Source: an uncultured Lachnospiraceae bacterium
Lineage (GTDB): Bacteria; Bacillota; Clostridia; Lachnospirales; Lachnospiraceae
Reading direction: 5' to 3'
NCBI GenBank assembly: GCA_934401915.1
Contig: CAKRSV010000003.1
Location: forward strand, 124,001-188,000
Length of the DNA stretch: 64,000 bases
Both the position numbers and the translations under genes were made by a program. Under the pieces are notes generated by a model. The model saw only the letters and a list, made by a program, of their open reading frames with translations. It was not told where the DNA came from and made no database searches. Shown piece after piece: positions 3,137-12,935 of this stretch; positions within the stretch are counted from its first letter, which is position 1, and every line of letters starts with the position of its first letter.

Positions 3137-3205
3137 GAAAAATAGTGCGAAAATTGCAAGGATATGCTGATTTTCGCGGCGTGTTGCCCAGAAATGAGGA
3201 TTGGT

Positions 3206-4576
3206 ATGAAAAAGGAAATAAAAGAGATAGACTTTATGATGATATATGAGCATAAAGTTCGGGAATTGGAGAATATGTGCCTTATCAAGTATGAGCTTGA
3301 GCGGAGAGGGCATACCGTAGTCATTAAACATATTGAAGATGAAGAAGCGTTGGAGGCTGTAAAACCGATTTATCATGCGAAAGTGGTCATGACAATGGCG
3401 TGTTACCAGAACGCTTCGCTGGAATGGCATACAAAGGATTTTGTGTCCTTTGATAAAGTGATCGATATGCAGTGGGAAAATATTGTATATCCTAAGGATG
3501 AACGGGCTGGAGTGTTTAAAAACTATACAGGGATCGGCAGAGAAGTGGTACGGGTATCCTGGGGAGAGGCAAATAAGAGAAGATTGATCGAAGCGGCATA
3601 TATGGATCCACGGAATGTGAAGGTAGTCGGCCATGTGGGGATGGATTTCCTGCGGGATGAATTGAAGGGATATTATCGCAGCAAAGAAGATCTGTTCCAT
3701 GAATATGGACTTCCAATGGATAAAAAGGTTTTATTGTTCGCATCGCCTTTTTATGCGGATAATCTCACAGAAGAGTATATTGCCGGTATGTGTCGTAAAC
3801 ATGGAGAGGACTGGCGGGAATATTATGACTTTATGATGAGGTCTGAAAAAACCATTCTTCAGTGGATGGAGAAGCTGTGCAATGAGCGACCGGATATTTT
3901 GATCATATATCGGCCGCATCCGGGCCACATCGGTGTGCATATGTCAGAAGTCGCTGAGAAATGCAGTAATTTCAAGGTGATCAGTGAATTGTCAGTGAAG
4001 CAGTGGATCATTGCGAGCGATATTGTGTATACAGGAAACAGCTCGACGATCGTGGAGGCGTTCTTTGCGGGAAGAATGTGTCACCTTTTATTCCCTTATG
4101 AGACAACGGATGGATTTGAACTGAAATTGGTCAGCCAGGGAGAAAAAGTGCGGACGTATGAAGAGTTCAAAGAGACGATAGACGAGAAGAATCCGGTATT
4201 CCCGATCAGCAAAGAAGCGATCAACGAGATCTATCTGGTGGACGATGTTCCAAGCTATCGGAAGCTGGCAGATATGGCGGAAGAGGTTCTGAAAAATCCG
4301 GAATATAATCTGACGAAGGAACAGTTGGCGTCATACCGGACAAAGTTACCATTGGCAGTCCAGATGCAGCGTAAATTGCAGCAATGGGACTGGTTTTATG
4401 ATAAATACCGAAAATTGCTTGCTGATGGGAATTATCATGGAAAGTGGATAGAAAAACAAAGGGAGCTCCGGCGTGAAAAACTGGAGGAACATAAGCGATT
4501 TGACCGGGAAAGCACGAGTGAAGAGGAAATAGCGCAAATTGAAGCCAGAATTGCAGAACAATTAAATAAGAAATAA
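3206..4576 (+). CDS. Surface-carbohydrate glycosyl/glycerophosphotransferase-like protein (GT-B fold)
   Basis: About 456 residues. The reading frame opens upstream, but the ATG at 3206 is preferred because GAAATGAGGA ends five bases before it. The protein looks like the capsule-synthesis/CDP-glycerol-glycerophosphotransferase-like superfamily: IIYRPHPGH in the middle (RPHP is the hallmark), then a TGNSSTIVEAFFAGR motif shortly after, matching the donor phosphate-binding segment of these GT-B enzymes. The C-terminal 60 residues are charged and probably helical (KWIEKQRELRREKLEEHKRF). It may transfer a polyol-phosphate or a sugar to the growing glycan; the donor is unknown. It lies directly upstream of the cytidylyltransferase of module A. 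Confidence 0.65.
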   Translation: MKKEIKEIDFMMIYEHKVRELENMCLIKYELERRGHTVVIKHIEDEEALEAVKPIYHAKVVMTMACYQNASLEWHTKDFVSFDKVIDMQWENIVYPKDERAGVFKNYTGIGREVVRVSWGEANKRRLIEAAYMDPRNVKVVGHVGMDFLRDELKGYYRSKEDLFHEYGLPMDKKVLLFASPFYADNLTEEYIAGMCRKHGEDWREYYDFMMRSEKTILQWMEKLCNERPDILIIYRPHPGHIGVHMSEVAEKCSNFKVISELSVKQWIIASDIVYTGNSSTIVEAFFAGRMCHLLFPYETTDGFELKLVSQGEKVRTYEEFKETIDEKNPVFPISKEAINEIYLVDDVPSYRKLADMAEEVLKNPEYNLTKEQLASYRTKLPLAVQMQRKLQQWDWFYDKYRKLLADGNYHGKWIEKQRELRREKLEEHKRFDRESTSEEEIAQIEARIAEQLNKK

Positions 4577-4607
4577 ATTACAGATAAATCCATAGGAGGA
4601 AAAAATA

Positions 4608-5288
4608 ATGAGTGATAAAATTACAGCAGTGGTACCGGTAAAAGGAAACAGCAGCAGACTTCCCAATAAGAATATTCTTCCGTTTGGGGATTCCAACCTT
4701 CTGCAGCATAAGATCGAACAGCTCAAACAGGTAAAGGGACTTCATGAGATTATCGTTTCATCAGATTCGGATGAAATGCTTGCCATCGGAGAAAAATGCG
4801 GTGTGAAGGCGATCAAAAGACCGATCCAGTACGCCAACGAATCCGTACCGTTCGGTATGTTCCTGGAATATCTGTGTGACACGATCGAAGGAGATCACCT
4901 TCTGTATGCGTGTGCAACATCACCCTGCGTTGAACCGTATCTGTATGAGAAGGCAATTAAGGTTTATTTTGAAAAACTGAAAGAGGGATACGATTCGCTG
5001 ATCACGGTTTCTCCGTATCAGACCTATCTTATGGATGATAATGGACCGCTTAATTTTAAAATGGGTCTGGAGCACAAAAATTCAGAGCAGCTTCCGATGA
5101 TGTATCATTTCACGAACGGAATCGACCTCGCACCGACGGCAAAGGTCAGGGAATGGCATTATAATTATGGTCCCAAGTATTACCAGCTTGTCATCAATAA
5201 GAGAGAGGCGGCAGACATTGACGATCTGTATGATTACGAGATGGCAAAGGCGCTGTATGCCATGAAGGATCCAAATCCGACGATTTAA
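4608..5288 (+). CDS. CMP-sugar synthetase-like cytidylyltransferase (NeuA/KdsB type)
   Basis: A 226-residue protein, the usual length for acylneuraminate/KDO cytidylyltransferases. Residues 7-26 contain VPVKGNSSRLPNKNILPFG, the nucleotide-binding P-loop-like signature of this family (R-x-x-x-K-N). SSDSDEMLAIGEKCG and the GDHLLYACATSPC segment match the next conserved strands. It should activate an acid sugar, or a related hydroxyl-bearing compound, with CTP. A strong AGGAGG site lies ten bases before the ATG. The next genes are an aldolase fusion and a KdsC-like phosphatase, so three steps of an ulosonic-acid-like route are adjacent, but no NeuB or KdsA condensing enzyme is in the window. Confidence 0.8.
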   Translation: MSDKITAVVPVKGNSSRLPNKNILPFGDSNLLQHKIEQLKQVKGLHEIIVSSDSDEMLAIGEKCGVKAIKRPIQYANESVPFGMFLEYLCDTIEGDHLLYACATSPCVEPYLYEKAIKVYFEKLKEGYDSLITVSPYQTYLMDDNGPLNFKMGLEHKNSEQLPMMYHFTNGIDLAPTAKVREWHYNYGPKYYQLVINKREAADIDDLYDYEMAKALYAMKDPNPTI

Positions 5289-5324
5289 TAAAGAGAGCAG
5301 TCTGCCCGGAAATGAGGATTGATT

Positions 5325-6905
5325 ATGTCAAATATCAAATTGCTTGACTGTACCCTGCGCGACGGAGGGTATATCAATGATTGGAATTTTGGAAAGCATA
5401 CGATACAAAGTATTCTGACAAAGCTGATCGAATCAAACGTAGATTATGTAGAAATAGGTTTTTTGCGGGATTGCGAGTATCACAAAGACAAGTCGCTTTT
5501 CAATAACTGTGCGGAGATTGCCAAAATTCTACCTGAAAATCGGGGCAAGACGATGTTTACGGCCATGGCGCTTCACAATAAATACAGTATTGATAAGCTC
5601 GAGCCGTATGATGGCAAAACGATCGACGCGATCCGCGTGACTTTCCATGACTATGATATTGATGAGGGACTGGCTTATATCCGGCAGGTGAAAGAAAAAG
5701 GATACAAGGTATTTGTCAATCCGATCAATATTATGGGATATTCGGACGAAATGATCCTGCAGCTTCTGAAGAAGGTGAATGATATTCACCCGTATGCGTT
5801 TTCCATCGTAGATACCTTCGGCTCAATGATGCGGGAGGACTTGCTTCGCATCTATTCTCTGATAGAGCATAACCTGAGCAAAGATATTGTGATCGGTCTG
5901 CATCTGCATGAGAATCTGGCATTGTCCTATTCACTGGCACAGGAGTTTATCAATATCAAGTCCAGCGAGAGAAAATGCGTGATAGACGCGTCTATGCTCG
6001 GCATGGGACGTTCGCCGGGAAATCTGTGCATGGAGCTGATCATGGACTATATGAATAAGAGACAGTCCGGCTGTTATGATGTGAATCCGGTTTTAGATGG
6101 AATTGATGACCATATCGCACAGCTGAAACAGATCGAGCCGTGGGGATACAATACAGCGTACGCAATTTCGGCAAAATATAATCTCCATAGAAACTATGCA
6201 GAGTTCTTGCTGGACAAGGGCAGATTGAGGGCAAAACAGATCAATCAGATTCTCGGGAGCATCGAGAACAGCAAAAAGACGGCTTTTGATGAGGCGTATA
6301 TTGAGAAGCTATATCAGGATTTTCAAAATATAGCGATCGATGATGAAAAGGTGATGGAGCAGCTCGGACAGGCCCTGTACCAGAAAAAATGCCTTGTACT
6401 GGCTCCGGGATCCAGCATTTTGAAGCAGCAGAAAGAAATTCGGGAGTATATCGATCAGAAAAATCCTGTCATTTTGTCGGCAAACTTCATTCCGGAACAG
6501 TTTCAGGCAGACTATGTATTTTGCTGCAATGCAATGCGTTATGAAGCGATTCGGGAAAGTAAGGGAAAAGAGAAGCATATTGTGACCTCGAATCTGGCAG
6601 ACGGCAGCAGGGACGGCGAGATGATCGTGAACTATGCGGATCTTCGTTTTGATGAGAAACAGCCGCTTGACAACAGTGTGATCATGCTTCTGAAGCTTCT
6701 CAGAAAGCTGGAAGTGAATGACGTTGCGCTGGCGGGTTTTGATGGATATCAGACAAATGGGCAGACCAATTATGTGGACGCTTATATGGCGAGCCAGCAT
6801 ACCAAGGGTGAAGAAGAAAACAAGAAGATATGCGGCGCGATGCACCAGCTTGAACAGCAGATGGATATCTGCTATCTGACGACGTCTCTGTATCACCAGG
6901 AGTAG
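5325..6905 (+). CDS. DRE-TIM aldolase (HMGL/DmpG-like) fused to a C-terminal Rossmann-like domain, copy 1
   Basis: About 526 residues from the ATG at 5325, six bases after GAAATGAGGA. Residues 1 to about 300 are a DRE-TIM metallolyase barrel: LLDCTLRDGGY at residues 6-16 supplies the Arg-Asp pair, and GLHLHEN supplies the metal-binding HxH. The position of the catalytic His in DmpG-type 4-hydroxy-2-oxovalerate aldolase is Tyr here, so the substrate or proton relay probably differs. Residues from about 355 form a second domain with CLVLAPGSSI, ILSANFIPEQFQADYVFCCNAM and NDVALAGFDGY. That order resembles the GxGPSL / Asn / GxDFY pattern of MptE/DUF115 and GT42 sialyltransferase-like folds (by eye only). 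The CDS at 23343 is a paralogue. Pyruvate-aldol chemistry is inferred. Confidence 0.72.
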   Translation: MSNIKLLDCTLRDGGYINDWNFGKHTIQSILTKLIESNVDYVEIGFLRDCEYHKDKSLFNNCAEIAKILPENRGKTMFTAMALHNKYSIDKLEPYDGKTIDAIRVTFHDYDIDEGLAYIRQVKEKGYKVFVNPINIMGYSDEMILQLLKKVNDIHPYAFSIVDTFGSMMREDLLRIYSLIEHNLSKDIVIGLHLHENLALSYSLAQEFINIKSSERKCVIDASMLGMGRSPGNLCMELIMDYMNKRQSGCYDVNPVLDGIDDHIAQLKQIEPWGYNTAYAISAKYNLHRNYAEFLLDKGRLRAKQINQILGSIENSKKTAFDEAYIEKLYQDFQNIAIDDEKVMEQLGQALYQKKCLVLAPGSSILKQQKEIREYIDQKNPVILSANFIPEQFQADYVFCCNAMRYEAIRESKGKEKHIVTSNLADGSRDGEMIVNYADLRFDEKQPLDNSVIMLLKLLRKLEVNDVALAGFDGYQTNGQTNYVDAYMASQHTKGEEENKKICGAMHQLEQQMDICYLTTSLYHQE

Positions 6906-6968
6906 TCAAAGCAGGACATTCTGAGGTAAAAACTGCGAAAACGGTATTACAGAAATGGGGAATCAAAA

Positions 6969-7505
6969 ATGAAGACAAGTTCCGTGCAAGAGATATCGAA
7001 AATAAAATGTCTGGTCATTGATGTGGATGGCACAATGACGGACGCTGGCATTTACTATGACGAACACGGAAATGAACTGAAGAAATTTTGTACCAAAGAC
7101 GCAGCTGGTTTTTTTGCTGCAAAAAAAGCCGGAATCAGAACGATGATCCTGACAGGACGCGAGTGCGAGGCAACTACCAGAAGAATGAAAGAGATGAAGG
7201 TTGATTTCCTGGTGCAGGATTGCAAGGACAAGATCACCTATTTGAGACATTTTATGCAGGAAGAGAATTTACTGCCCGAGGAGATTGGATATCTGGGAGA
7301 TGACCTGAACGATCTGCCGCCCATGAGCCTGTGCGGGTTTGTTGGCTGTCCGCAGGACGCGTGCCGGGAAGTTAAGGAAAGAGCGGATTACGTATCTGAA
7401 ATTAAGGGCGGTTATGGCGCCGTGAGAGATATCATAGAGCATATGCTCCGCATGACCGGAAAATGGGAAATGATTACCCGTGAGGTGTACGGTATCGGGG
7501 TGTAG
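6969..7505 (+). CDS. KdsC-like HAD phosphatase
   Basis: A 178-residue protein with the compact cap-less fold of the KDO-8-phosphate phosphatase group. LVIDVDGTMTDAG near residues 15-27 is HAD motif I (nucleophile Asp and acid/base Asp). ILTGRE is motif II, a Lys follows in KDKITYL (motif III), and GDDLNDLP is motif IV. It should remove phosphate from a sugar-acid phosphate before cytidylyl activation. It lies 63 bases after the aldolase fusion and three genes from the polymer transferase, with GGGGA before the ATG. In KDO and sialic-acid routes this step sits between the condensing enzyme and the CMP transferase, which supports module A being a pathway of that type. Confidence 0.85.
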   Translation: MKTSSVQEISKIKCLVIDVDGTMTDAGIYYDEHGNELKKFCTKDAAGFFAAKKAGIRTMILTGRECEATTRRMKEMKVDFLVQDCKDKITYLRHFMQEENLLPEEIGYLGDDLNDLPPMSLCGFVGCPQDACREVKERADYVSEIKGGYGAVRDIIEHMLRMTGKWEMITREVYGIGV

Positions 7506-7523
7506 GCAGAGAGGTTTGACGCG

Positions 7524-8609
7524 ATGACAACCAGAATGAATGTTTTCCTGACAACTTCAAAGAAGAGTGTGCGCTATGCCTATCCGGCGATCGTTTCTCT
7601 GTTTGAATACAATCAGGATTCAGAGATCTATTTATATATTGCATCAGAAGATCTGACAGACGGAGATATCTGTGCAGAGCGACAGGCAGCGCAGAAATTT
7701 GGGCATCATATTATCATTTGCAGATTTAATGAGGATGAGGCCAGAAAACAGATTGTTTGTTCTGATCCGGATCACTGGCCGGTTGGGGCAATGTCATGTT
7801 ACTGGATGTTTCATCAGCTTTTGCCAGAGGATGTAGACCGGATCATGGCGATCGAAGCAGATACGGTTACAGTTGGATCTCTGAAAGAGTTTTATGAAAC
7901 GGATTTAGAGGGATATTATGCGGCGTGTCCGGATCCGGAGCATAAACCGCTGACACATAAGAGACAGATGGATGTACTGGGGGGCGATGTGCTGACCTTT
8001 GTGGCATCCATTTATGATGTAAAGAAGATCAGACAGGATTTTACGCTGCAGGATATTTTGGAGATGGATGGAAAGATTTCGTCCAGATATGGACAGTCAC
8101 AGATGGAGCTGACATTTGGAATCCTGTTTCGTGGAAAGATTAAATATCTTCCGGCGCCTGAGTACAGTGTTGAGCAGAACCGACAGTCAATGGAACGGTT
8201 TGGGTATGACTATTTAAAGAAATGTGAGGAAACTTGTAAAATCCTGCATTTTTCCTCGACGGGAGCGAAAGAAAAACCGTGGAATCCCACGTGTATCATG
8301 CCGGGATATCTGTACTGGTGGGAATATGCCAAGGATAGCCCTTATTTTAAGGAGTATTTTGAGCAGCAATGGAAATCATATGCGATGCTGACGAAGGAGA
8401 GAAAGGCGGCACAGAAGGACAAAACGGTCAGAAATGTTCTCTTGTGCGCTATTTTGTTGATTGTCGGAGCAGAGATGGTATGGATGGGATTCCTGATCGG
8501 AAAATGGTATATCATACTGCTTCAGGCAGGGGTCTGCGCAGCAGCGATAGGAGCTGCAATAGGAATTCGATGGTTGTCTATCCGTATTTTTCATAGAGAA
8601 AGAAAGTAG
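7524..8609 (+). CDS. GT8-like glycosyltransferase with C-terminal membrane anchor
   Basis: A 361-residue protein. The N-terminal 280 residues have GT8 character: MNVFLTTSKKSVRYAYPAIVSLFEYN, then RIMAIEADTVTVGSLKEFY, where the metal-binding DxD of the family is EAD, and a late CKILHFSSTGAKEKPW that corresponds to the GT8 'HF.G..KPW' C-terminal motif. Two hydrophobic helices near residues 305-350 (LLCAILLIVGAEMVWMGFLI and the next) probably anchor it in the membrane. The start is the ATG after GAGAGG. The E-for-D change may be tolerated because the second Asp is retained. Donor unknown. Confidence 0.75.
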   Translation: MTTRMNVFLTTSKKSVRYAYPAIVSLFEYNQDSEIYLYIASEDLTDGDICAERQAAQKFGHHIIICRFNEDEARKQIVCSDPDHWPVGAMSCYWMFHQLLPEDVDRIMAIEADTVTVGSLKEFYETDLEGYYAACPDPEHKPLTHKRQMDVLGGDVLTFVASIYDVKKIRQDFTLQDILEMDGKISSRYGQSQMELTFGILFRGKIKYLPAPEYSVEQNRQSMERFGYDYLKKCEETCKILHFSSTGAKEKPWNPTCIMPGYLYWWEYAKDSPYFKEYFEQQWKSYAMLTKERKAAQKDKTVRNVLLCAILLIVGAEMVWMGFLIGKWYIILLQAGVCAAAIGAAIGIRWLSIRIFHRERK

Positions 8610-8643: not shown

Positions 8644-9711
8644 TTGAAACTGATTGATTTTCTTAGAAAAAGTGAAAAACTGGTATATTATAATCGTTGT
8701 TTTCTGCATAGAAATAAACCTGAGTTTCGAAAAATGGTGTTAGAGGGGTATCAGAACCCGGACTTTTTGGAGGTTCAACACCTGGGAGACGATTATGAAG
8801 GCCATATGGTCTATGTGGCGGATGAGACAGGAAATGGGATTGGTTTTTTTGCAGAACTTGGCATGACACTGATCAAGCTGTATTTTGCGGACGAGAGAGG
8901 TTTTACCCCTTATGTGCGATGGGGAGAACGGTGTGTATATTATGAACCGGAAGGCGTAAGAGGAGAAAAAAACGCCTTTTTACATTATTTTCAACCTGTT
9001 TCGGAGATTGAGACAGAGAAGCATGCCAGCCATGTGGTCTATCAGAAACCCTGGCAGTGCAATCAGGTTAAGAAGAAATATGAGGCGGTCAGTTACGAAG
9101 TTTCAGAAGATTACATCAATGCTATGGCTCGGATGTTAAAAAAGTATGTCCGCTATAATGAGGATACACAAAAGTATCTGGAAAGTGAATTTGTAAGGCT
9201 GCTTGGTGACAAAAAGACGGTGGCAGTACATTATCGGGGAACGGATTTTAATAAAGGATATAATAATCATCCCGTGCCGGTTCAGATTGAACAGGAGATA
9301 GAGCAGGTAAAGAGATTGCTTGCTGAGAAGGACTATGAACAGATTTTCCTGGCGACAGATGAAAATTCCGTAGTGGAGCGCTTCCGGAAGGAATTTGGAG
9401 ATATGGTGAAGGTGTATGGAGATACCTACCGGGATAATGGAACCGGAGAATCTGTGGCTTTCAGCACATCGGATCGGAAGCTGCATCATTACAGACTTGG
9501 AATGGAAGTGCTGCGGGATCAGTATACGCTTACGCACTGTGCGGGGATCGTGTGCGGATATTCGAATATTACATTTCTTGCCAGAGTGATGCGTCGCGGC
9601 TGGCTGGAGAAGGAGTGGGAGGATTATTGTCTGATTAATAATGGACTGTTTCATAATGACAACCGGTTTGGCAACAGTAAAAATGCAAGGAGTCTGCAAT
9701 GGAGAAATTGA
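8644..9711 (+). CDS. RGTD-motif glycosyltransferase (fucosyltransferase-like), copy 1
   Basis: A 355-residue protein that appears to start at a TTG (8644) after a GCGAGG site; no upstream ATG fits. VAVHYRGTDF near residue 195 matches the H-x-R-x-x-D donor phosphate site of NodZ/GT11/GT23 and O-fucosyltransferase-like enzymes. IFLATDEN and the later GIVCGYSNITFLA are the other conserved blocks. It probably uses a GDP-sugar or similar donor. The last 13 bases overlap the next gene, so the two are translationally coupled. Two relatives lie at 10963 and 11937; the three share block order but little sequence between blocks, so each probably has its own acceptor. Confidence 0.65.
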   Translation: MKLIDFLRKSEKLVYYNRCFLHRNKPEFRKMVLEGYQNPDFLEVQHLGDDYEGHMVYVADETGNGIGFFAELGMTLIKLYFADERGFTPYVRWGERCVYYEPEGVRGEKNAFLHYFQPVSEIETEKHASHVVYQKPWQCNQVKKKYEAVSYEVSEDYINAMARMLKKYVRYNEDTQKYLESEFVRLLGDKKTVAVHYRGTDFNKGYNNHPVPVQIEQEIEQVKRLLAEKDYEQIFLATDENSVVERFRKEFGDMVKVYGDTYRDNGTGESVAFSTSDRKLHHYRLGMEVLRDQYTLTHCAGIVCGYSNITFLARVMRRGWLEKEWEDYCLINNGLFHNDNRFGNSKNARSLQWRN

Positions 9712-10962: not shown

Positions 10963-11922
10963 ATGATACAACTTCTGGGACAAATGTGGAATTGGATAAA
11001 GAACTTCACGGATTTGGAGTTGCGCTATCTGTTAAAGAGAATGAAAGCGAAGTATTATGTTATCATCCGTTCAGAAGGTGGGGCTGGTTTCTTCTCCAAT
11101 TATTTCTGGGTTATGGGTCATGTTGCATTTGCTGAGAAAATGGGATATATACCAGTGGTGGATATGGAAAATTATCCTACGCTTTACAGTGAAGAAGAGC
11201 CGATTGACGGCACAAATAATGCCTGGAATTATTACTTCGAAAACATTGGAAATCTTGGACTGGATGAAGTGTATGCGAGCGGCAGATATGTGATTGGAAA
11301 AGACAAATACTTGACAAAATATGCAGAGAAATATAGCATGTTTCCATATCGTTATCCCTCGGAACGGATGATAGCGTACTATGCCCCTATCATTAAGAAA
11401 AATCTCAGGATAAAACAATCTCTGGTGAATGAGTATAAGAGAGAGTGGATAGAAAAAACATCCGGTTCAAACAATATTCTGGGTATTCATATCAGGGGAA
11501 CGGATATGAAGAACAATCTGGGACATCCGATGCCGGCATCTGTGGCGGAATATATCCGGAGAACCCATGAAATGTTAGAAAAGTACCCGGATATCAGCCG
11601 GATCTTTTTGGCTACAGATGAAAATGAAGTCAAGGAAGCGTATGAACGGGAATTTGAAGGAAGTGCGGCAACGCTGTTTATGAATGAGGCGTTTCGAGCA
11701 TGGGATGATGGGCAAATGAAGAAAACAGGGCTGCATGAAATGAAGATAGACAATCCCAGACCTCGTCATAAATATCTGTTGGGAAAAGAAGTGCTGAGAG
11801 ACGCATGGTTTCTGAGCAGGTGTCAATACTTACTGTGTGGTCATTCGAACATCACGAATGTTGCTATTTTGTGGAACGAAGGGAAATATAATGAAGTGGT
11901 ATGCGTTGAAGGTGATCAGTGA
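10963..11922 (+). CDS. RGTD-motif glycosyltransferase (fucosyltransferase-like), copy 2
   Basis: A 319-residue protein. LGIHIRGTDMKNNLGHPM near residue 170 is the H-x-RGTD block. IFLATDENEVKEAYEREF and CQYLLCGHSNITNVAILW follow in the same order as in copy 1. An early SEGGAGFFSNYFWVMGHVAFAEKMGY segment (glycine-rich, then N/S) corresponds to the N-terminal nucleotide pocket of GT11/GT23-like enzymes. It is shorter than copy 1 by about 35 residues, mainly at the N-terminus. GGGAG precedes the ATG. The product probably modifies a branch sugar; the fucose assignment is family-level inference only. Confidence 0.62.
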   Translation: MIQLLGQMWNWIKNFTDLELRYLLKRMKAKYYVIIRSEGGAGFFSNYFWVMGHVAFAEKMGYIPVVDMENYPTLYSEEEPIDGTNNAWNYYFENIGNLGLDEVYASGRYVIGKDKYLTKYAEKYSMFPYRYPSERMIAYYAPIIKKNLRIKQSLVNEYKREWIEKTSGSNNILGIHIRGTDMKNNLGHPMPASVAEYIRRTHEMLEKYPDISRIFLATDENEVKEAYEREFEGSAATLFMNEAFRAWDDGQMKKTGLHEMKIDNPRPRHKYLLGKEVLRDAWFLSRCQYLLCGHSNITNVAILWNEGKYNEVVCVEGDQ

Positions 11923-11936
11923 GTAAAATGGAATAA

Positions 11937-12935
11937 GTGGAGAGCACAATGGGAAAGAATGTAATTTACAGAGGATTATCGTTTGCCTGGCGAAATACGT
12001 GGCTAAAATGGTATCGGGGAAGCAAACAGAGGAAAGTAGAGAATTACTGGAAAGAGCATCGGGTAAAACGGGGAAAAGAGAATCCGGAACAGACCTTTTA
12101 TGTAATCCGGAGAAGAGATGCTTATTGCGGTCTGTTTTCTATTCTGCTCACGAGTCTGCAGCGAATCAGTAATGCGGTTCAGGCAGGTTATGTTCCTATT
12201 GTTGATTTACAAAATGATTTTAATATTTATCTGCCAGAGGATAAAATTGGAAAAGAAAATGCCTGGGAATTTTATTTTAAACAGCCAATGGGCTATTCTT
12301 TGGAGGATGTGCAGAAAAGTCAGAATATCATTTTAGGATCAGGTGCCGTTCCTGAAATGTTTCCGTATTTAAGTGTTGATTTTCTATACGGAAAGACGGG
12401 GGAGCTGGAATACTGGAGAAAACTGGCAAAGAAATATATTGTCCTGAGCGACGAGGCGGCTCAAAGAGTGGAACAGGAGTATCAGAGACTTTTTGCAAAG
12501 GAAGATAAAGTGCTCGGAGTGAAATGCCGGGGGACGGATTATGCGAAAGGAAAACCGAAAAATCATCCCATTCAGCCAACTGTAGAGCAGATGGTTACAA
12601 AGGCGGAAGAAATTTTTAAACAGAGAAATTGTACAAAAGTGTTTCTCGCGACGGAGGACAGCGAGTTTTATGAGGCGTTTGCAGAGAAATTCGGGGACAG
12701 ACTGGTGTCCAATAAAACGCAGTATGCGCAGTATATGGGTGGATCAGCCGGAAGAGAAGAATATGAAAGGGAATCCAACAACTATGAATCCGGCATGGAG
12801 TATCTTGTGACAACAATGTTGCTTGCAAAATGTGATTGCCTGTGCGCCGGATGCGTTTCAGGAACAGTGGGAGCATTATTATTGACAGAGGGTTTCGAAT
12901 ATACTTATCTGTTTGATCTTGGAATTTATGAATAG
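11937..12935 (+). CDS. RGTD-motif glycosyltransferase (fucosyltransferase-like), copy 3
   Basis: A 332-residue protein whose GTG start at 11937 or the ATG at 11949 are both possible; GTGGAG lies around the first, and an upstream AATGGAATAAG is weak. LGVKCRGTDYAKGKPKNHPI replaces the usual His of H-x-RGTD with Lys, while Arg and Asp are kept. KVFLATEDSEFYEAFAEKFGDRLV and the terminal CDCLCAGCVSGTVGALLL, with Ser/Gly in place of the SNIT of the other copies, show it is the most divergent of the three. It is separated from copy 2 by 14 bases. Either the acceptor or the catalytic behaviour may differ. Confidence 0.6.
   Translation: MESTMGKNVIYRGLSFAWRNTWLKWYRGSKQRKVENYWKEHRVKRGKENPEQTFYVIRRRDAYCGLFSILLTSLQRISNAVQAGYVPIVDLQNDFNIYLPEDKIGKENAWEFYFKQPMGYSLEDVQKSQNIILGSGAVPEMFPYLSVDFLYGKTGELEYWRKLAKKYIVLSDEAAQRVEQEYQRLFAKEDKVLGVKCRGTDYAKGKPKNHPIQPTVEQMVTKAEEIFKQRNCTKVFLATEDSEFYEAFAEKFGDRLVSNKTQYAQYMGGSAGREEYERESNNYESGMEYLVTTMLLAKCDCLCAGCVSGTVGALLLTEGFEYTYLFDLGIYE

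Follow-up and report, generated by a model that had tools for sequence, protein, structure and literature searches.

The subject of this analysis is a trio of genes in a stretch of 64,000 nucleotides from an uncultured Lachnospiraceae bacterium (assembly GCA_934401915.1, contig CAKRSV010000003.1, positions 124,001 to 188,000), the whole of which is referred to here as the window. The three open reading frames (ORFs) are open and consecutive on the + strand, at the coordinates given by an initial annotation of this DNA, and encode a NeuA/PseF/KdsB-type cytidylyltransferase (4608..5288), a DmpG-like HMGL-barrel aldolase of 528 amino acids (aa) with a C-terminal domain (5319..6905, an in-frame ATG at 5325 being perhaps the true start) and a KdsC-family HAD phosphatase of 178 aa (6969..7505). 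The initial annotation had assigned the outer two genes to the cytidylyltransferases and the KdsC-type phosphatases, and both assignments were confirmed by profile scores above cut-off: PF02348 (CTP_transf_3) gave 50.4 bits (cut-off 22.6) for the former and TIGR01670 (KdsC-phosphatas) 129.9 bits (cut-off 106.95) for the latter. At a finer level the cytidylyltransferase is closest to PseF/NeuA, yet stays under every specific cut-off; its top specific model is PseF (72.2 bits, cut-off 205.7), KdsB proper scores 17.9 bits against a cut-off of 155.2, and the closest solved chains are synthetases of cytidine monophosphate (CMP)-N-acetylneuraminic acid (CMP-Neu5Ac). The phosphatase lies under both equivalogs, KdsC proper (135.7 of 208 bits) and KDN-9-phosphate phosphatase (134.6 of 180 bits), and its closest solved chain, 3e81, was deposited under the title 'Acylneuraminate cytidylyltransferase'.

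The barrel of the middle protein belongs to the HMGL-like superfamily (PF00682, 57 bits, gathering cut-off 29) and to a large family, 5533 of the 7999 scored candidates matching it at E <= 0.001. Its closest named models are the 4-hydroxy-2-oxovalerate aldolases, at scores far under cut-off (TIGR03217, 53.4 of 286 bits), and its closest solved structures, by sequence and by fold alike, are 3dxi and the DmpG-type aldolases. The entry 3dxi, the N-terminal domain of BVU_2661 from Bacteroides vulgatus, represents the same barrel subfamily and is the best solved match (1.6e-27 and E 2.9e-18); it is titled a putative aldolase, and the records consulted give no function for it. The predicted structure model of the protein is confident (mean predicted local distance difference test score, pLDDT, 91.7), and fold matches of the barrel include those of pyruvate carboxylase and transcarboxylase, which likewise handle pyruvate. 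The Arg-Asp (TLRDG) and His-x-His pairs align with those of the DmpG-type enzyme AmnG, at positions which we take to bind metal and pyruvate in DmpG, and residues R14, D15, H195, H197 and N199 were invariant in 77/77 aligned aldolase rows. In contrast to the DmpG/HOA aldolases, with which these pairs are shared, the protein has a Tyr at the position of the presumed catalytic base, an extra C-terminal domain and glycan surroundings. A relative consisting of the barrel only was observed on a plasmid of Desulfobaculum bizertense (L091:4846-9014), where its neighbours, transketolase genes and RfbH, place the same aldolase family in another sugar setting.

The description of this gene as a DmpG-like aldolase fusion was right, since residues ~346-528 (6354..6902) form a separate domain behind the HMGL-like barrel; what had been overlooked is the fold of that domain. 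Its predicted fold is that of the CMP-sialyltransferase/Maf/MptE proteins (GT42/GT29 group), from which it differs in being shorter and to which it is ~9-16% identical. Residue H494 of this domain is invariant in 16 near relatives, though not across the whole family. Judging by the predicted fold, the domain probably binds CMP or a CMP-sugar, either for transfer or for feedback control.

The trio singled out by the initial annotation is kept as a grouping in relatives, as revealed by a survey of 80 loci, the best 80 of 585 confirmed from one genome-contig scan. Neighbour profiles were built from the genes of these same loci, with identity checked against NCBIfam; one flank or both are shorter than 9 kb in 36/80 loci, and misses in the neighbour counts therefore come partly from want of sequence. 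According to the record titles the loci are mostly from Bacillota, with others from Akkermansia, Spirochaetota, Bacteroidota, Gastranaerophilales and Fusobacterium. A same-strand cytidylyltransferase was located within 300 bp of the aldolase at 61, within 3 kb at 66 and within 10 kb at 72 of the 80 loci; the corresponding numbers for the phosphatase were 51, 58 and 60, and both partners were present within 10 kb at 54 loci. Neighbours selected by size were scanned further (54/75 upstream and 41/72 downstream, five loci being without an aldolase gene call). Immediate upstream neighbours (188-271 aa) matched PseF in 52/54 and a KdsB model in 49/54 cases at 1e-5, and a KdsC match was obtained for 21/41 downstream neighbours.

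Two sets of cytidylyltransferases, KdsB-like and NeuA-like, occur among the loci, and the phosphatases are likewise of two kinds, KdsC-like and phosphoglycolate-phosphatase-like. The type of cytidylyltransferase partner switches 13 times along the aldolase tree, and well supported branches require at least 10 of these switches (L010-L012 were labelled KdsB from genes 4.9-6.6 kb away). Such exchange of the activating enzyme, with the aldolase kept, is expected if both kinds of cytidylyltransferase handle similar acids. At L078:10004-12262 the aldolase and a HAD phosphatase are naturally fused into a single protein of 752 aa. A distant trio on a plasmid of Leisingera caerulea, whose aldolase is 24% identical, is annotated as aldolase, 3-deoxy-manno-octulosonate cytidylyltransferase and HAD hydrolase; the cytidylyltransferase scored above two KdsB subfamily cut-offs and under the kdsB equivalog, and no NCBIfam match at 1e-6 was found for the hydrolase. 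Among the surveyed loci, the aldolases of L017 and L018 are nearly identical, although the records are titled Mediterraneibacter glycyrrhizinilyticus and Pseudogracilibacillus metagenome-assembled genome (MAG), which reflects either a recent transfer or a mis-binned contig.

The local lack of a synthase dependent on phosphoenolpyruvate (PEP), already remarked on in the initial annotation, was borne out by tblastn, which, with a single PseI and a single KdsA from relatives as queries, found neither NeuB nor KdsA in the window (best E 1.1); the proteins of 3164-8609 also gave no NeuB or KdsA domain match with Pfam/NCBIfam profiles. Among the 80 loci a NeuB-like sequence was detected at L075 only (one PseI query, 1e-4). 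The search for other condensing enzymes was extended to the genomes of 30 of the 80 loci, chosen before the results for spread and with the close relatives of the window included; all were selected as aldolase holders and not as a random sample, and many are MAGs. KdsA matches over cut-off were used (4 of 29 model matches), together with strong NeuB matches, defined by E below 1e-30 (20 of 44, the 24 left out having <=51 bits), all 56 cytidylyltransferase matches (CTP_transf_3, threshold 1e-8) and 37 of 54 aldolase matches, 17 barrel-only ones (112-347 bits) being dropped and one of those kept being barrel-only with an internal stop.

KdsA was over cut-off in 4/30 and strong NeuB was present in 14/30 of these genomes, and neither KdsA over cut-off nor strong NeuB was found in 13/30. 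In 10 of the 13 synthase-free genomes the weak KdsA/NeuB matches coincide with synthases of 3-deoxy-arabino-heptulosonate 7-phosphate (DAHP; TIGR01361 over cut-off), and in the remaining three none of the three models matched. Eleven of the 13 genomes (G009, G010, G016-G022, G024 and G028) have a single CTP_transf_3 gene, which is no more than 3 kb from the aldolase. Of the 56 cytidylyltransferase genes across the 30 genomes, 27 have an aldolase within 10 kb, 17 a NeuB, one a KdsA and 11 none of these, and not one of the 56 has both an aldolase and NeuB within that distance.

These observations suggest, with a probability of about 0.7 in our estimate, that the trio encodes a PEP-independent, aldolase-based route to a CMP-activated 3-deoxy-2-ulosonic acid. 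In such a route the metal-dependent HMGL/DmpG-type barrel would condense pyruvate with a phosphorylated aldose to a 3-deoxy-2-ulosonate phosphate, the KdsC-family phosphatase would take off the phosphate, the NeuA/KdsB-type cytidylyltransferase would form the CMP-sugar, and a transferase encoded nearby, in the window probably the TIGR04396 protein discussed below, would put it into a surface glycan. On the comparative evidence this is the best available account; the final steps, dephosphorylation followed by CMP activation, would be known ones, with the acid made in an unexpected manner. The idea that an aldolase stands in for the PEP-dependent synthase, put forward in the initial annotation, appears well supported by the conserved trio, the aldolase-phosphatase fusion and the 11 of 30 genomes in which the gene pair occurs free of a synthase. 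We give somewhat better than even odds to the broader view that these proteins constitute a widespread undescribed class, in which a metal-dependent pyruvate aldolase builds the backbone and the sialyltransferase-fold domain of the same polypeptide binds or transfers the CMP-product.

The order of chemistry, if the aldolase is read correctly, would be the same as in the pathway to 3-deoxy-manno-octulosonic acid (Kdo; KdsD-KdsA-KdsC-KdsB), with which the module also has a phosphatase of the KdsC family in common, as well as, in many relatives, a cytidylyltransferase resembling KdsB; the difference is that a barrel of the pyruvate-aldolase type stands where KdsA would. The module resembles the nonulosonic acid pathways (NeuB, PseI) in its NeuA/PseF-type cytidylyltransferase and, in some relatives, in sialyltransferase-type genes upstream of the trio; it differs from them in that no NeuB-like sequence was found in the window. 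Surveys of genomes for sialic-acid-like sugars rely on NeuB or KdsA as markers. If the proposed route operates, bacteria free of both would make sialic-acid-like surface sugars unseen by such surveys; carriers scored as negative, gut Bacillota among them, would turn positive, with bearing on surface glycans and host recognition, and a function would be gained for a large family mostly named just 'aldolase', including the solved structure 3dxi.

Several observations weigh against the proposed route. Residue Tyr18 stands where AmnG has the His that follows TLRDG, presumably the catalytic base in DmpG, and among the 77 aligned rows this position is Y in 69, H in 6 and F in 2, so that the acid-base step may differ. 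Barrel-only relatives are found in other settings, beside a split transketolase and RfbH and in a plasmid region with aromatic-breakdown genes, and the histidine which we assume sialyltransferases to use is without a family-wide conserved counterpart in the C-terminal domain. The cytidylyltransferase is missing within 10 kb in 8/80 loci, of which L060, L062, L063 and L078 have full 10-kb flanks. Five of these eight loci, near kin on the tree (L062, L063, L074, L077 and L078), keep the phosphatase with no cytidylyltransferase within 10 kb, and this branch may hence activate its product otherwise or by a gene elsewhere. Among the 37 aldolase copies in the 30 genomes, 10 are without a cytidylyltransferase within 10 kb, several of them being second copies. 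The two KdsA/NeuB-free genomes outside the group of 11 belong here as well: in G026 the cytidylyltransferase is on another contig than the aldolase, and in G030, from which L078 comes, a search with CTP_transf_3 gave no match at 1e-8.

One alternative is that the product is ordinary Kdo, the aldolase joining pyruvate to arabinose-5-phosphate to give Kdo-8-phosphate. KdsB-like enzymes are numerous among the partners (best 7e-92), the partner at L019 matches a structurally solved Kdo cytidylyltransferase with 153 bits, and the phosphatases are often KdsC-like; nevertheless, we consider this unlikely. The window's own partner is not KdsB, and the arabinose-5-phosphate isomerase KdsD (TIGR00393) is over cut-off in just 3/30 genomes, all three holding KdsA, with partial matches under cut-off in G001 and G007. 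This scarcity makes Kdo an unlikely product for most carriers, unless short isomerases without a second domain, which the TIGR00393 test could miss, are present.

It is also quite improbable that the acid comes from a PEP-dependent synthase elsewhere (PseI/NeuB or KdsA), with the cytidylyltransferase and the phosphatase serving that enzyme and the aldolase doing something else. The nearest relatives of the window on the aldolase tree (L006, L013 and L001) come from genomes that hold NeuB, and strong NeuB-family genes were found in 8/8 close-relative genomes searched, with KdsA in one of them (G001), which counts against the proposed route. The initial annotation had named a NeuB or KdsA homologue elsewhere in the genome, acting with these genes, as evidence against its reading; as far as the close relatives go, such homologues do exist, but the strong NeuB genes have their own cytidylyltransferase 0.1-4.5 kb away. 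The cytidylyltransferase beside NeuB scores above cut-off as PseF in G003 and G008; in G002, and at one of the NeuB regions in G003, the synthase scores likewise as PseI and is accompanied by PseG, also above cut-off. A pseudaminic-type pathway thus appears to run beside the aldolase module in these bacteria. The KdsA region of G001, a record titled Lachnospiraceae, has matches to a phosphatase and a cytidylyltransferase of its own (L089:5114-8634). Synthases elsewhere would, moreover, leave the aldolase-cytidylyltransferase pair unaccounted for in the 11 synthase-free genomes that still keep it. A KdsA-based Kdo island has been published for a Gram-positive bacterium, Bacillus coahuilensis, and the G001 region resembles that island (PMC4744853).

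One NeuB-like gene departs from this separation, an additional weak one in G007 that lies beside an acetolactate-synthase-like gene ~14 kb from the aldolase. At L075 a weak NeuB-like and acetolactate-synthase-like pair is found within 10 kb of the aldolase. Both cases speak against the proposed route, and the two pairs may belong to the same glycan as the aldolase module. Regions of this type, in which a weak NeuB-like protein accompanies an acetolactate-synthase-like thiamine enzyme in a glycan locus with the aldolase module, were observed at L075:5307-9254 and L093:5077-8461, all matches being under cut-offs, and perhaps represent another unusual acid-sugar route.

We regard it as very doubtful that the barrel is a Claisen-type, acyl-CoA-dependent HMGL enzyme which modifies a sugar acid and does not build the ulosonic backbone. 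The HMGL superfamily holds isopropylmalate, homocitrate and related synthases, and weak profile and fold matches to such enzymes were obtained, but the nearest named relatives in sequence and fold are DmpG-type pyruvate aldolases, and the KdsA/NeuB-free genomes would still need another acid-making enzyme. DmpG-type aldolases are catabolic, and one barrel-only relative lies among aromatic-breakdown genes, yet operation of the aldolase in the cleavage direction, for salvage or turnover of an ulosonic acid, is highly improbable, considering that in the window and on the Leisingera plasmid the genes sit among glycosyltransferase and transporter genes beside an activating enzyme, and that no sugar-acid kinase is among the neighbour families listed, which cover only part of the neighbours.

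For the transfer step of the proposed route, the gene just upstream of the trio provides a candidate that the initial annotation had overlooked. It encodes a TIGR04396 surface carbohydrate biosynthesis protein (3164..4576, + strand, 149.1 bits, cut-off 125) and travels with the trio in relatives: in 8/8 close-relative genomes there is one TIGR04396 match at 1e-10, which exceeds the cut-off in six genomes and falls short of it in two, and which is situated within ~4 kb of the cytidylyltransferase of the trio. The single match per genome and its closeness to the trio make this protein the candidate transferase for the CMP-activated acid here. In a wider scan of the genes directly upstream of the cytidylyltransferase (48 of 56, with 8 omitted as partial, short, very long or near-duplicate), 8 were MptE-like, 8 GT2, 6 GT52, 5 TIGR04396, 4 CDP-glycerol-type and 3 polysialyltransferase, one gene possibly matching more than one family. 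The MptE-like proteins are kin of Maf. At L017, whose genome (G009) lacks strong NeuB and any KdsA above cut-off, the upstream gene is polysialyltransferase-like, over cut-off. These upstream families support a CMP-ulosonate product, though they are not uniform.

The next gene after the trio encodes a glycosyltransferase family 8 protein (7524..8609, + strand, PF01501, 30.3 bits, cut-off 24.3). Further downstream the window contains glycosyltransferase genes, an ATP-binding cassette (ABC) transporter and two polysaccharide pyruvyl transferase genes (PF04230; 17989-19026 and 20346-21377), which belong to the same glycan locus as the trio. Three proteins of the window (8644-9711, 10963-11922 and 11937-12935) gave no Pfam match at 1e-5; they are mutually related (25-30% identity, E 1e-21 to 1e-29) and probably represent one unassigned transferase family in three copies.

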